Source of the DNA: Verrucomicrobiota bacterium
GTDB taxonomy: Bacteria; Verrucomicrobiota; Kiritimatiellia; Kiritimatiellales; Pontiellaceae
Length of the DNA stretch: 44,925 nt
Assembly (NCBI GenBank): GCA_024279685.1
Contig: JAJRRI010000037.1
Span: 1-44,925 of the forward strand
Direction: 5' to 3'
Positions 18,683 to 26,027 of this stretch are shown here, piece after piece; positions within the stretch are counted from its first letter, which is position 1; each line of letters opens with the position of its first letter. The notes beneath the pieces are model-generated. The model saw only the letters and a list, made by a program, of their open reading frames with translations, searched no databases and was not told the DNA's origin. The translations under genes were made by a program, and so were the position numbers.

Positions 18683-20506
18683 TTAGATTACTTCGCTGTA
18701 TAGTTCAGTTTCGAGTTCATGGATGGCCTGTTCGTAGGCGGGTTTCCCGCCGAAGGCTTTGACCAGTTCGAGCGGGGTTCCCATCTGGCTGAGAGGCTGA
18801 ACCTTGAGAATTTCCATGGCTTCAATTGCTTCTGGCCCCTGATCGGCGTATTTGTCGAGAATGGCTTCTAGGACGGCTTTGGCCTGTTCGTCGTATTGGG
18901 TGAAGTAGCTCCGCTTTTTCACGTTTTCAGCACGTTCCTTGCGGGTCAGTGGCGGCCTTTCGTAGACGACGTGGCAGATGAGGCCGAAGGGGTCGTCGTC
19001 CTTGCCGATCTCTTTTTCCAAGGCCTCGAAAATGAGGCCCTGGTCGCGTAGCTCTTCGATGATGGCTTGCTTCTTTTTCGCAGTGCCCCAACGGTTGAGG
19101 AATCCATCGAGCGTGGCGCAGTCATCCGGCATGCGTTTGCGGGTATATTCCTTGAGCGATTCGGTCACAAGTCGCCCTTCGGCATTGTAGTACTGGACGC
19201 GCTCGGCCAGTAGCATGACCTCGAGATCGTCGATGACATATTTAACCGTTCCGGGAGGTTCGGGGTCGGTAATCAGGGTTCCGCCCCCGCCAATCGGCCC
19301 ATCGACTTCGGTTGGTTCTTCCTTCTCGGGGGGCAACACGGGGATCATCCGGCCCGGGCATGTAGACCGATACGGGGTCTCCATCAAAGTCGGGATCGGC
19401 AAATAGGTCGGTTACGCCCCGGAAATCCATGATGGTGAAATACATTTTTCCAAACTCTTCTTTAATGCGGGGACCACGGCCAATGATCTGCTTGAACTCG
19501 GTCATGGAGTTAATATTTTGGTCGAGTACGATCAACTTGCAGGTCTGGGCGTCGACCCCGGTGGTCATGAGCTTGGAGGTGCAGGCAATGACGGGATGGG
19601 TGGATTCGGGGTCGATAAAGTTGTCGAGCTCGGCCTTGCCGAGGGTTTCGTCGCCGGTTATGCGCATGACATAGCGCGAGTCTGCCCGTACCGCTTTGGG
19701 GTGCAGGTTGACCAAGGCCTGGCGCATCCGCTCCGCGTGGTCGATGTCCTGGCAAAAGACGATGGTTTTGGAATAGGGATCGGTGGCTTCTAAAAAGTCG
19801 GCTATTTTTTGCGCCACCAGCTCGGTACGTTTTTCGAGCACCATGGTTCGATCAAAATCCTTTCGGTTGTAGATGCGATCTTCGATCTCCTTGCCGTATT
19901 TATCCACCTTGCCCTTTTCGGGACGCCATCCAATATCGCGATCAATGTCGTGGCGGATCACCTTGCTAGGGGGCGAGAAAGCCATCGGCGATGCCCTGTC
20001 GTAGGGAGTAGAGATAGATCGGTTCACCGAAGTATTCCGTGTTGGAAACCTCGCGGGTCTCCTTGGGCGTGGCGGTCATACCAATTTGGGCGGCCGAGGA
20101 AAAGTAGGTGAGGATTTCGCGCCAGGCGTCGTCGTCTGCTGCGCTGCCCTGGGGGCACTCATCTACCATGATCAAGTCAAAACAGTTGGGAGAGAATTGC
20201 TTATAGATATTTTGCGACTCGTCGGCTCCGCTGACGGCGTGGTAGAGTGAGAGATAGATTTCGTAGGATTTATCGACCATCCGGTTAGTGATTTTGGTCA
20301 TGGCCTGGCCAAAGGGTTTGAAGTCGTTTTCGCGGGTTTGGTCGATCAGGATATTGCGGTCGGCCAGATAGAGGATCCGCTTTTTGGCGCCGGTTTTCCA
20401 GAGCCGCCAGATAATCTGGAAGGCCGTGTAGGTTTTCCCCGTGCCGGTGGCCATTACGAGCAGAATACGATTCTGCCCGTCCGCAATGGCATCTACTGTG
20501 CGGTTC
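18683..20506 (-). pseudogene. hsdR: Type I restriction enzyme HsdR, 5'-truncated with two frameshifts
   Basis: Motor subunit of a type I restriction-modification system, now broken. The remnant begins at [11 protein letters not shown], just before Walker A ([14 protein letters not shown]), and abuts the secA stop codon. The N-terminal nuclease domain and hsdM/hsdS are absent. Helicase motifs follow ([13 protein letters not shown], then [28 protein letters not shown]-like, [14 protein letters not shown]) and the C-terminal domain. Motif II reads [11 protein letters not shown] instead of the family DECHRGSAAD. An extra base at 19966 makes a TAG after GFLAP; an extra G in 19340-19343 shifts the frame again after PGPDDP. 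Truncation, a changed motif II and two indels together argue for true decay. Confidence 0.88.
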
Positions 20507-23500
20507 CTATTCCGCGCCACAGCATTTTTTATACTTACGACCGCTCCCACAGGGGCAGGGGTCGTTGCGGCCCACCTTAGGGCCTTCGTTGCGGATCGGG
20601 ACGGCGGGGGGTGGAGTTTCCATGCCGGGCGGGGGTGCACCCATCGGCTGGCCCATCCCCGGAGGGAGGGCGCCTTGAGGGCGGGCCTGTGCCGCGGCGG
20701 CGGTGAGGGCCGAAACCTGATGGTGTACTTGCATACCCGAGAGGGATTGGAAGAAGCCATCCATGGCTTCCATCGAGGTGGCCGAGCGGAACATGGAGGT
20801 CGCGATTTCCTCATAGATGCGATCCATCAAATCCATAAAGAGGTTATAGGCTTCGCGTTTGTATTCAACGATTGGGTCGCGCTGTCCATAGGCAACGAGG
20901 CCGATTCCCTCGCGCAAGCCATCCATTGAACGGAGGTATTCCTGCCAATGTTCATCGACCGCCTGGATGATCATGTGCTGCTCCAGTTGTTGGAGTGCTT
21001 CGGAGTTTTCATGGCTGGCCTTGAGCTCGTAGGCCTGCTTGACTCGATCAAGGACGAAGTCGATCAGGTTATCGATCGTTCTTTCTGCGGGTAAATCTTT
21101 TTCATGAAGTCCGAGCGGGAAGGTGGTATTGACCCACGTAATAAACTCGTGGATGCTCGCCTCGCTTTTAGCATTCACGGCATTGATCGCACGGGAGGCA
21201 ATAATCTCTTCAACCGCGTAAAAGAGCTGTTCCCGAGTGTTCTTGCTTTGTAACGCTTCGGAGCGAAATCCATAGATTTTTTCGCGCTGCTTGTTCATCA
21301 CGTCATCATATTCAAGCGTGCGCTTACGAATGGAAAAGTTTTGTTGTTCGACGCGTCGCTGGGCGGTTTCAATGGATTTGTTGAGCCATGGGTGCTCGAG
21401 TACTTCGCCCTCCTCGATGCCGAGTTTTTCCATGATACCGGAAATGCGGTCGGAGCCGAATAGGCGCATCAGATTGTCTTCAAGCGAAACGAAAAAGCGC
21501 GAGATCCCGGGGTCACCTTGGCGGGCGCAACGGCCGCGTAACTGGCGGTCAATCCGTCGCGACTCGTGGCGCTCGGAGGCAATCACATAGAGGCCGCACG
21601 GCTTCTCTTCGAGTAGCTTTTGTAAGGGGGTTCCGTCGATCTTACTGGAGAGCGAAAAGGTCTTTGACTGGAGGTCTTCGTCTTTCAAATAGACCACTTC
21701 TCGGCCGAGCTTGATGTCGGTTCCGCGGCCGGCCATGTTGGTCGCAATCGTTACCGCCCCCGGTTGGCCGGCGTTGGCGACAATTTCGGCCTCGCGTTCA
21801 TGGTTTTTGGCGTTGAGTACGTTATGAACAATGTTTTCGCGCCGCAACATGCGGCTGAGGACTTCGGAGGTTTCGACCGCTACCGTACCGACGAGTACCG
21901 GTTGCTTGCGGGCGTGCGCCGCTTTCACTTCGTCCAAGACCGCCTTGAATTTTTCGCGTTGGGTCTTGTAGATTTGGTCGTTGAGATCCACGCGCCGTAC
22001 GGGCCGGTTGGTGGGGATAACCATCACGTCGAGTTTATAGATTTGGTGGAACTCGTCGGCTTCCGTTTCGGCGGTACCGGTCATGCCGGAGAGTTTGTCG
22101 TACATCCGGAAATAGTTCTGGATGGTGATGGTGGCGAGGGTTTGAGTTTCGCGCTCGATCTTTACATTTTCCTTAGCTTCGACCGCCTGGTGGAGGCCAT
22201 CGCTCCACCGCCGGCCGACCATTAGACGGCCGGTATGTTCATCGACGATCACGACTTGGTTATCTTGCACAACATAGTCGATATCTTTTTCGTAAACGCT
22301 ATAGGCGCGAATCAGCTGGTCGACCGCATGGACGCGTTCGTTGCGTAGGGCAAATTCTTCTTGAACTGCGCGGCGTTTTTCCACGAGCTCTTCGGGCGAA
22401 AAGGTCGTATTTCCATCGAGTTCGGCCATGGCGGAAACCATGTCGGGGAGGATATACATTTCTGGTTCGTTCGGGTTGAGTTCTTCGCACCCTTTTTCGG
22501 TGAGTCCGGCATCGTGGCCTTTTTCATCGATGGTGAAAAAGAGTTCTTGGCGTAGTTCACGGGCCAGAGGCGCGCGCTCTTTCGCTAGCATTCTCATCTG
22601 TGTTTTTTCGAGCAGTTTTCGGATTTTAACATCCTCGATCATCTGCATGAGTTGTTTGTTCTTGGGCATGCCCTGGAACACCTGATACATTTTGACTGCG
22701 GCGTCATCTTCCTCACCTTGATCGAGGTGATTTTGGGCCTCTTCGAGTAGCTTAGTGCAAAATTCGCGCTGTCGCCGGACGAGTCGTGCGGCGGCCGGTT
22801 GGAGGTCGGCATATTGTGTGGACGAGTAGGGCGCGGGTCCGGAAATAATTAGCGGGGTACGCGCTTCGTCGATGAGAATCGAGTCAATCTCGTCGACGAT
22901 GGCAAAGTTGTGGCCCTTCTGTTGCACCATATCTTCAGGGCGGAAGGCCATATTATCGCGCAGGTAGTCAAAACCAAATTCAGAATTGGTTCCGTAGGTA
23001 ATATCACACAGATACATTTCGCGGCGCTCGGGCGGCGGCATCATATTTTTCAGGCAACCGACGGTGAGGCCCATCCACGTGTAGAGATAGCCCATCCATT
23101 CGGAGTCGCGTTGGGAGTGATAGTCGGAGGTTGTGACGACGTGCGCGCCTTTCCCGGCCAGTGCATTGAGGTAGACGGGCAGGGTGGCCACCAGGGTTTT
23201 TCCTTCGCCCGTTGCCATCTCGGCAATCATGCCTCGATGGATGGCAAGGCCACCCACCAACTGCACATCAAAGTGGACCATTTCCCAATCGATCGGGTGG
23301 TCGCAGACCTCTACCGTCGTGCCGCACAAACGTCGAGCTGCATTTTTGACCGCCGCAAAGGCTTCACACGAAATATCGTCAAGCGTTTCCCCTTTTTCCA
23401 GCCGCTCACGAAATTCAGCCGTTTTGGCCTGCAGCTGTTCATCGGTTAGCGCCTTGTATTCCTCGTCAAATTTATTAATGCGAGCCACGAGCGGCTACAT

Positions 23501-23749: not shown

Positions 23750-25209
23750 ATGGGCATGACTAAACATAAACCGGTTCCTTTGGTTATCTTCGGGGTTCCG
23801 TTTCATAACGTAAGTTTTGAAGAGACCCTCGACTGGATGGCGGCCCGCGTACGCGAAGGCCGTCCCGTCAACGTAGCCACCGCTAATCTCGATTTTGTTA
23901 CCCAAGCCTGGAACGACCCCGAGCTTCAGCGATTACTGATCGACGCCGACCTTGTGCTGGCCGATGGCTTTCCGATCGTGAAGCTCTCCCCCTTCTTTGG
24001 TCCGCCTTTGAAGGATCGCGTAACGGGGAGCGACCTCACCCCAATGCTCGCCGAGCGGGCGGCTCACGAAGGCTTCAAAATCTATGGTCTCGGCTCGGCC
24101 GATGGCGTGGCCAAAACCGCCATGGAAATTCTGAAGGCTCGGCATCCAGATCTGAAGGTCGCCGGAACCTACTCTCCGCCCTTCACTCCCTTGCTGGAGA
24201 TGGATCACCGCGCCATCCTCCAACGGCTGGAGCGGACGCAGCCCGATATTCTATTCGTCGCCCTCGGCGCACCGAAGCAGGACAAGTTTATCAGTATGCA
24301 TGTCCGTGGCTGGAACGTACCTGTTTCCATTGGTGTTGGCGGCTCGCTCGACTTTATCACCGGCGAACAAAGCGCGCTCCGGTTGGGTTGCAGAAGCTAC
24401 AACTGGAGTGGGTTTGGCGAATGTGCTTCAGTCCTACACGGCTATTTTCCCGTTATTTAACCAACATTCGCTTTCTGCTCTCCGCCAGCCGCCAGATGTG
24501 GAAGATCCGTCGAATGCCCGACCGTTCCGTCGTTTTTCAAACCCTGGACTCGGTGAATATCGGTCTGCTTGAAACTCTAGGCGCGAGGGTCGAACGGTTT
24601 CAAAATGTGGAAAGCGAGTCCGCCGCCCGTGAGTTTATTGCCCATCTCGAAGAGCTTTCTATGAACAATATCGTGCTCGATCTCCACGCGGCGCCCTGGC
24701 TTGATAGTCTCGAACTCGGCGCCCTGCTAGAAGTCAATAAGTGCTGCCGGGCGAACGGAACGCGCTTGATCCTCTACGCCCCGCGCCCCAAGATCCGGCG
24801 TTTGCTCGAAACCTGCCGACTGACCGATTATTTCGATACGGCTACTCGGATGAACGAGCTAGAAGAAATCCTCCAAAATCTAACCGAACACCGCGATGGG
24901 CACATGGTATACGACGCGGGTTTACTCACCCTCGAGCTTCCCATGGAGCTCACCGCCGCAACCGTCCCGGGCGTTGAAAAACAGGCCGAATTTATTCAGC
25001 AAGAGTTAAAGAAAAGGGGGCGTTTAAAATCGATTTCGATCGATGCCGCGCAGCTTGATTTTATCGACAGCTCCGGTCTTGGCTTCCTGATTGGTCTCAA
25101 GAAAGTGACGCAGGATAAAGGGGTCTCCATGTCCATCACCAACCTTTCCAGCCGCCCTCGCCGCGCCTTCGAAATTGCCCGCGTCGATACGATTTTATTA
25201 CACGCCTGA
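23750..25209 (+). CDS. WecG/TagA/CpsF glycosyltransferase fused to two STAS domains (frameshifted)
   Basis: The first part (about 245 residues) is a GT26 glycosyltransferase: NVATANLDFV, LADGFPIV, RVTGSDLTPML, FVALGAPKQDKF and GVGGSLDFITGEQ. The typical C-terminal KRAP-QKL-LEW-WRM segment continues in the next frame from 24370; one missing A in 24369-24371 explains the break. The rest carries two STAS (anti-sigma-antagonist-like) domains, the first around VVFQTLDSVNIG to MNELEEIL, the second around LTLELPMELTAATVP with DFIDSSGLGFLIGL, whose serine corresponds to the regulatory site in SpoIIAA-type proteins. Restored length 486. Known GT26 enzymes transfer sugars such as ManNAcA or ManNAc to lipid-linked acceptors; the STAS fusion suggests partner-regulated activity, which is inference. 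Confidence 0.85.
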
Positions 25210-25215
25210 TGGAAT

Positions 25216-26027
25216 TTAACCCATAGTAGGTCGATCTTGTTCGGCCTTTTTAAAGAGTTCAATGCGCATCGGGCCAAGCCCCGTCCCGAGATGGGCGGGT
25301 GATTTGAGGCATTGGTTCAAGAAGGTCTTGGCCGTGATGATCGCTTCGGGAAGCTCTTGTCCGAGTGCAAGGGCGGCGGCGATGGCTGAGGAGAGGATGC
25401 AACCGGTGCCGTGTGTGGCCTGTGTTTCGATGCGTGGGCTTGATAACCAGAGCGTTTGTGATCCGTCGGTCCAGTAGTCGCAGCATGTATCGCCAGCCGC
25501 ATGGCCCCCTTTGATCAGCACGGACCTGATCCCCATTCCTAATAGGTGTTCGGCGGCCGCTTCCACCGTTTGGATCGGCTTATTGATCAAAGCTTCGACC
25601 TCAGGAAGGTTGGGCGTCAAGACGGTGACCTTTGGGAAAATTTGCTGAATGAGAATCTCCCGAGCCGCGCTTTCCAATAAGGTTGAACCCGAGGTTGATT
25701 GAAGCACGGGATCGCATACTAGGGGTATGTTCATAGGGTGTAAAAAATCGGCAACGATTCTGCAGGTTTCGGCCTGGCCGAGCATTCCGGTCTTGATGGC
25801 GGCCGGTGGAAGGTCGGTTTTTAGCGCTTGAAGTTGGGCGCGTAGCATGGATTTGGACACCGGCGCTATAGCCAGCACAGCGTGTGTGTTTTGGGCGGTG
25901 ATGGCGGTGATTACTGAACAACCATGCACGCCAAGGGCGGTCATCGTCTTGAGGTCGGCTTGAATTCCGGCACCGCCACCCGAGTCAGAACCGGCGATGG
26001 TCCAAGCAACGGGCTGGGTCTTTTCAT
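25216..26027 (-). CDS. thiD: Hydroxymethylpyrimidine/phosphomethylpyrimidine kinase ThiD (frameshifted at codon 2-3)
   Basis: Phosphorylates HMP and HMP-P in thiamine synthesis. The frame from 25944 (242 residues) lacks the conserved start. The same frame reads upstream as TQPVAWTIAGSDSGGGAGIQ and ADLKT, the normal ThiD N-terminus, but has no start codon before a TAG near 26115. An ATG at 26027-26025 is one base out of frame; one more A in the A4 run 26021-26024 would give MKKTQPVAW and a 270-residue protein, the usual size. The ribokinase-fold signature THGTGCILSSAIAAALALG is intact, as is KTGMLGQAE. Convergent with the glycosyltransferase-STAS gene with 6 bp between stops. Confidence 0.88.

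Follow-up and report, generated by a model that had tools for sequence, protein, structure and literature searches.

The question raised by this locus, from a marine bacterium of the Pontiella type, is whether a glycosyltransferase of the GT26 family, joined to two STAS domains, forms the enzyme end of a partner switch. The window, that is the whole stretch of 44,925 nucleotides that was analysed, carries the gene between secA and a thiD-like gene. The features of the region are listed below.

20507..23488, minus strand: secA, divergent neighbour, upstream
23750..24460, plus strand: GT26 (WecG/TagA/CpsF) catalytic part, PF03808 match
24361..24456, plus strand: GT26 C-terminal appendage (profile 137-168), in another reading frame than the catalytic part
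24616..24846, plus strand: STAS1 (PF01740), motif WLDSLELG, above the Pfam cut-off; serine codon of the phospho-position at 24706-24708
24919..25197, plus strand: STAS2 (PF01740), motif DFIDSSGLG, above the Pfam cut-off; serine codon of the phospho-position at 25069-25071
25216..25944, minus strand: phosphomethylpyrimidine kinase (thiD-like), convergent neighbour, downstream

In the Pfam scan, positions 23750-24457 match Glyco_tran_WecG (PF03808) at 1.2e-38 over profile positions 1-140 of 168. The remainder of the profile (140-168) is found at the start of 24370-25206, where it scores 24.1 bits alone, below the cut-off of 27.4, and is followed by two stretches matching STAS (PF01740) at 1e-24. 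This second frame ends at 25209. The full PF03808 profile is covered in the window, split across two overlapping frames (1-140 and 137/140-168), and is present at its full length, 1-168, in a relative (L098). The change of frame falls near 24,361-24,390 and the gene is broken in this MAG, so the window's own copy may not work. The secA gene also adjoins the fusion gene at 11 of 15 loci of relatives (L071-L085). The contig has a second broken gene: at 18683-20814 on the minus strand, the R subunit of a type I restriction system (EcoEI_R_C, helicase and ResIII domains) is split over three open reading frames in different frames.

The earlier note had described the two parts as a single protein, a description that would fall if relatives carried a stop between them. 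Such a stop was sought in 57 other genomes. Seventeen of them hold 277-279 of the 279 tail residues together with the GT26 part in one stop-free frame, at 52-72% identity across the tail, and none of the 17 contains the stop. These comprise 16 members of the same genus, in one of which (G002) the open frame runs off the start of the contig, and G028 of the same family. Among the 27 other members of the genus, the remainder divide into four whose gene is fragmented at contig ends, one that has a divergent copy only (29% identity) and six in which the fusion protein was not found. The isolate Pontiella sulfatireligans F21 is among the relatives with a single open frame. Since one frame spans both parts in 17 relatives, the fusion is real, as the note had it, and both a pair of separate genes and a programmed frameshift as the rule are ruled out.

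The part of the window's gene after the break, encoding the STAS domains, gives dN/dS values of 0.08-0.13 against four relatives, compared with 0.11-0.12 for two intact pairs among the relatives, with synonymous sites close to saturation. These low values indicate that this part was under selection until recently, so the break is either recent or an assembly error. That no fusion protein exists in nature, the window holding two separate genes or an artefact of assembly, is scarcely credible. The two frames of the window would fit it, but the single frame in the 17 relatives, the cultured F21 included, and the purifying selection on both parts speak against it.

The GT26 part keeps conserved residues of its family. 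An alignment of 18 proteins of 480-494 residues, 16 from the intact set and two more distant, shows the equivalents of TagA Thr37, Asp65, Arg214, Arg221 and Arg224 to be invariant (18/18). Mapped through the relatives, the threonine and aspartate lie within 23750..24460 of the window and the three arginines within the appendage at 24361..24456. In an AlphaFold2 model of one relative (L017; pLDDT 84.9, pTM 0.85), residues 233-258 form a long helix that separates STAS1 from the appendage. Foldseek matches this model to TagA/TarA at TMt 0.92-0.94 and also to SpoIIAA as bound to SpoIIAB. Activity and membrane binding of TagA are reported to require the appendage with Arg221, and it has been proposed that a soluble dimer lacks activity (PMC6493773). 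Contig C58 of the window's genome encodes another GT26 that has no STAS, and several genomes of the phylum have a GT26 gene without STAS inside the operon described below. GT26 enzymes as such can thus function without STAS domains.

Variants of the GT26-STAS architecture were also met in the phylum. Two GT26-STAS-STAS proteins (L107 6602-8095 and L108 688-2262) have a degenerate GT26 part that lacks the catalytic and appendage motifs; judged from their sequences, these could possibly be dead-enzyme regulators. Longer GT26-STAS proteins of 866 and 860 residues are encoded at L156 2524-5121 and L158 9697-12276, the former with an N-terminal GT2 glycosyltransferase domain in the same frame.

The absence of a kinase or phosphatase of the anti-sigma type near the gene holds for the contig; the genome's four PF13581 (HATPase_c_2) and four PF07228 (SpoIIE/PP2C) matches are on other contigs. 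One of these contigs (C178) encodes a 556-residue protein composed of a receiver domain, a SpoIIE/PP2C phosphatase domain and an HATPase_c_2 kinase domain. Directly after it is a gene for a phosphoglycosyltransferase of 244 residues (Bac_transf, 3.9e-62), followed by a STAS gene which crosses the contig end. Contig C80 overlaps this end by 141 bases and continues the STAS gene, after which comes a gene for a protein with NTP-transferase and LbH domains. The free STAS protein of this operon is RsbV-like or SypA-like and consists of the STAS domain only. The order kinase/phosphatase, phosphoglycosyltransferase, STAS, NTP-transferase/LbH is common to all five members of the genus for which the region was fetched (L092-L096). 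No sigma factor was found among the operon genes scanned.

Bac_transf enzymes make a polyprenyl-PP-sugar. A published account (PMC9860679) is consistent with this activity, and TagA is reported to extend a lipid of the polyprenyl-PP-sugar type (PMC6493773). The GT26 part is accordingly predicted, by a role established for the two families, to add a sugar to a polyprenyl-linked sugar. The NTP-transferase/LbH protein (L091 8180-9577 and homologues) was modelled at pLDDT 84 and pTM 0.67 with a fold like that of nucleotidyltransferase-LbH proteins, and the C-terminal part of the L091 protein weakly resembles Bac_transf. Ahead of the kinase gene there is an Hpt gene in one member of the genus (L093, 7.8e-14) and a hybrid histidine kinase gene in two loci from other families (L097, L184). 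With such genes upstream, the arrangement looks like a phosphorelay feeding the combined kinase/phosphatase.

Within the Pontiellaceae, the fusion gene stands alone, mostly beside secA and away from the operon. The two are found together in other families. In G257 (L098), the operon ends with the GT26-STAS-STAS gene, which overlaps its neighbour by a few bases. At three further loci (G310, L097; G340, L099; and L086), the gene and the end of the operon are convergent, with a small receiver-domain gene lying between at L099 and L086. In three genomes (G278, G180 and G344), less than 5 kb separates GT26-STAS from a kinase/phosphatase of a different build, HATPase_c_2 first and SpoIIE last, as identified by Pfam scan in G278 and G180 and by local profiles in G344. 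The STAS-only gene is within 5 kb of GT26-STAS in G278 and G180 and about 6 kb away in G344. Looser spacing is seen in G185, where the kinase/phosphatase and the STAS-only gene are both 11-12 kb from GT26-STAS, and in G054, where some 17 kb of the contig separate the gene from the operon.

The neighbourhoods of all 27 listed GT26-STAS genomes outside the genus were inspected, mostly over some 8 kb per side where contigs allow. A kinase/phosphatase gene, in one of two domain orders, is within the fetched stretch in seven and was not found there in the other 20; a STAS-only gene is within it in 12 of the 27. By a rough estimate, made without control stretches, chance would give well under one kinase neighbour per 27 genomes. 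The mere presence of an RsbW-like domain was dropped as evidence, as PF13581 is matched in 57 of 58 genomes. In another class, a 99-residue STAS gene and a gene of 365-373 residues are present, along with other genes, upstream of a GT26 gene with one STAS domain (L150 and L151, with L152 similar); the L150 copy of the longer gene has no Pfam match.

Co-occurrence was followed across 387 genomes of the phylum with a close match to the NTP-transferase/LbH protein (E below 1e-130) as the marker of the operon. This marker is present in 26 genomes spanning nine families; 82 genomes with weaker matches were left out. Among the matches listed, GT26-STAS is found in 25 of the 26 marker genomes and in at least 12 of the 361 without it, with a Fisher value of 3e-29 that ignores descent. 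The GT26-STAS set contains at least 37 genomes, 10 in the genus and 27 outside, from matches listed down to about 4e-9 and read by eye; it counts G011, with the gene in two contigs, and G025, with a divergent copy. In G034, the lone marker genome without a listed GT26-STAS, the operon is present, and a separate contig encodes a GT26 with a degenerate phosphoglycosyltransferase domain as its N-terminal part. The same degenerate Bac_transf-GT26 protein is present in G355 (by Pfam scan), G242, G303, G321, G239 and G315 beside the phosphoglycosyltransferase and NTP-transferase/LbH genes. These two genes adjoin it at all of the listed loci (L170 10677-12062, L171-L173, L177, L178 and L182) except L182. 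This replacement of STAS by Bac_transf suggests that GT26 is a standing part of the module, with the STAS tail as one of two attachments. Taken together, a functional linkage between GT26-STAS and the switch operon is well supported.

The STAS domains themselves retain the residue on which such a switch would act. The serine directly after the aspartate of the STAS motif, which we take to be the residue phosphorylated in SpoIIAA and RsbV, is found in 44 of 47 STAS1 and 33 of 36 STAS2 domains. The sample is of 47 GT26-STAS proteins of the phylum, 36 of which have a second STAS domain; 16 belong to the window's genus, so the proteins are not independent. The DFIDSSGLG site which the earlier note assigned to the second domain is present in the window's translation. 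Most STAS1 domains have a glutamate where the DSSG motif usually has its glycine, giving WLDSLELG. Among the other STAS domains of six genomes, the serine is found at this position in 3 of 16 SulP-like domains, none of five in a class of 380-443 residues, all six of a class of 178-248 residues with no known switch, and six of seven short STAS-only proteins outside the operon.

When STAS2 was compared with the other STAS domains of its own genome, the operon STAS was the best match in all six genomes, at 35-48 bits against 7-32 for the next. The best match of STAS1 was the operon STAS in three genomes and another domain in two, and in one the operon STAS was level with STAS2. A maximum-likelihood tree of 52 domains places STAS2 and the operon STAS apart, on a weak branch (71/99). 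As the tree does not group them, the similarity may reflect either shared function or retained ancestry. With scores in favour and the tree against, the likeness is compatible with a shared kinase without being proof of one. For the same reason, we do not claim that STAS2 descends from the operon STAS. A recent tandem duplication of STAS1 and STAS2 is unsupported, scores within the protein being only 4-13 bits. In G003, the fusion gene is followed 4.6 kb downstream by a lone STAS gene of 108 residues (L072 7716-8039), a weak STAS match with 56% identity to STAS2.

The switch components resemble those of the RsbV/RsbW/RsbU and SpoIIAA/SpoIIAB/SpoIIE systems of Bacillus in the STAS fold, the DS motif, the HATPase_c_2 kinase domain and the PP2C phosphatase domain. 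The output of both Bacillus systems is a sigma factor, whereas the candidate output here is an enzyme. The closest characterised switch found is SypE/SypA of Vibrio fischeri, set beside the present system by description. Both comprise a response regulator with serine kinase and serine phosphatase domains, a STAS-only protein with a phospho-serine site, polysaccharide genes and input from histidine kinases (PMC4517449, PMC10120452, PMC11112999). The domain order of SypE is reported as kinase-REC-phosphatase (PMC10120452), compared with REC-PP2C-kinase here. The unphosphorylated form of SypA is reported to be active, with inhibition by the SypE kinase (PMC4517449, PMC10120452). SypA has been described as acting via an as yet unknown protein target (PMC10120452, 2023) and its control as exerted at an unknown level (PMC11112999, 2024). 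Unlike SypE/SypA, the system described here also has STAS fused to a biosynthetic enzyme.

The enzyme itself is closest to TagA/TarA of Thermoanaerobacter italicus (PDB 7mpk, 5wb4), with which it shares the fold, the catalytic Thr/Asp pair and the appendage arginines. As described in PMC6493773, TagA/TarA is without STAS and serves wall teichoic acid synthesis in Gram-positive bacteria. A precedent for glycosyltransferase and STAS in one protein is all4160 of Anabaena, a glycosyltransferase with an N-terminal STAS domain (PMC8256260). Synthesis of the heterocyst envelope polysaccharide is reported to depend on all4160, among other genes (PMC4390870). This comparison is by description only: the available accounts of all4160 mention one STAS domain, at the N-terminus, whereas the window's protein has two at the C-terminus and does not share the N-terminal arrangement. 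The earlier note knew of no characterised protein with this order of domains. A GT26-STAS-STAS protein was not found named in the titles and abstract openings searched, a scope with subscription papers mostly outside it, but the idea of a glycosyltransferase joined to STAS is not wholly new, all4160 having been studied genetically.

On the sequence evidence, the GT26 enzyme with its two C-terminal STAS domains is somewhat probably tied to a partner switch, with the operon supplying the other parts of the module. The best reading is of a switch like SypE/SypA wired directly to a glycan-building enzyme. In this scheme, the receiver domain would be set by a histidine kinase together with an Hpt protein, and would thereby tip the combined protein between its kinase and phosphatase activities. 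The resulting phosphorylation state of the free STAS, of STAS2 and STAS1, or of all of these would determine whether STAS binds the kinase or an enzyme partner. Binding or release of STAS would then alter the appendage of GT26, and thereby the attachment of the enzyme to the membrane as well as its activity. The STAS domains directly follow this appendage, on which TagA depends for catalysis and for binding the membrane, and so could keep it on or off the membrane. The phosphoglycosyltransferase of the operon would make the lipid-linked first sugar, and GT26 would extend such a lipid. The switch may thus act on glycan synthesis itself and not on gene expression. Phosphorylation, the choice of STAS domain that is acted on, the direction of control and the effect on the enzyme are steps that we infer. 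The link to an anti-sigma-type kinase switch drawn in the earlier note is strongly backed on the genomic side by the kinase/phosphatase encoded elsewhere in the genome and, in several related families, near the gene; gating of surface glycan synthesis is the part reached by inference.

The full form of this reading, a serine-phosphorylation switch with a glycan enzyme in place of a sigma factor as its output, in which phosphorylation of the STAS on GT26, or its exchange with the free STAS, toggles the second step of surface glycan synthesis at the membrane, is put forward tentatively, at a little under even chances. An alternative is that the STAS domains dock the free STAS, the phosphoglycosyltransferase or the NTP-transferase/LbH protein and so hold the early enzymes of the pathway together, the enzyme never being phosphorylated. 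The operon partners do resemble enzymes of a single pathway, the fusion of the operon GT26 to a degenerate Bac_transf in other classes looks as if the docking part were exchangeable, and most STAS1 domains have lost the glycine of the canonical motif. Such docking is nevertheless rather unlikely given the serine at the phospho-position in over 90% of both domains (against the 3 of 16 in SulP-like STAS) and the co-encoded kinase/phosphatase.

A further explanation draws on SulP and other proteins, whose STAS domains work with no kinase involved: the STAS pair might only dimerise the enzyme or bind a lipid or nucleotide, with co-occurrence reflecting a shared glycan pathway. The uninformative distribution of RsbW-like domains would be in keeping with this, as would the 20 of 27 genomes in which the genes are not close. 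It is made improbable by the seven genomes with a kinase/phosphatase in the fetched stretch, in two domain orders, and by the close operon marker, which is nearly always accompanied by GT26-STAS.

The preferred reading, a partner switch joined directly to GT26, bears on the polysaccharides of these bacteria and on SypA-type proteins in general. Strains of Pontiella in culture have been reported to produce a sulfated exopolysaccharide in stationary phase (PMC7356697), so that a phenotype is measurable; the main text of this source does not contain the terms "WecB" or "anti-sigma". The STAS domains fused to a glycan enzyme, and kept alongside a free STAS, a kinase/phosphatase and what is probably the enzyme acting one step earlier, provide concrete candidates for the target still missing for SypA-type proteins, and the identity of this target becomes testable. 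If the reading is true, the fusion would serve as a Rosetta stone, predicting that free SypA-type STAS proteins bind a phosphoglycosyltransferase or an early glycosyltransferase.
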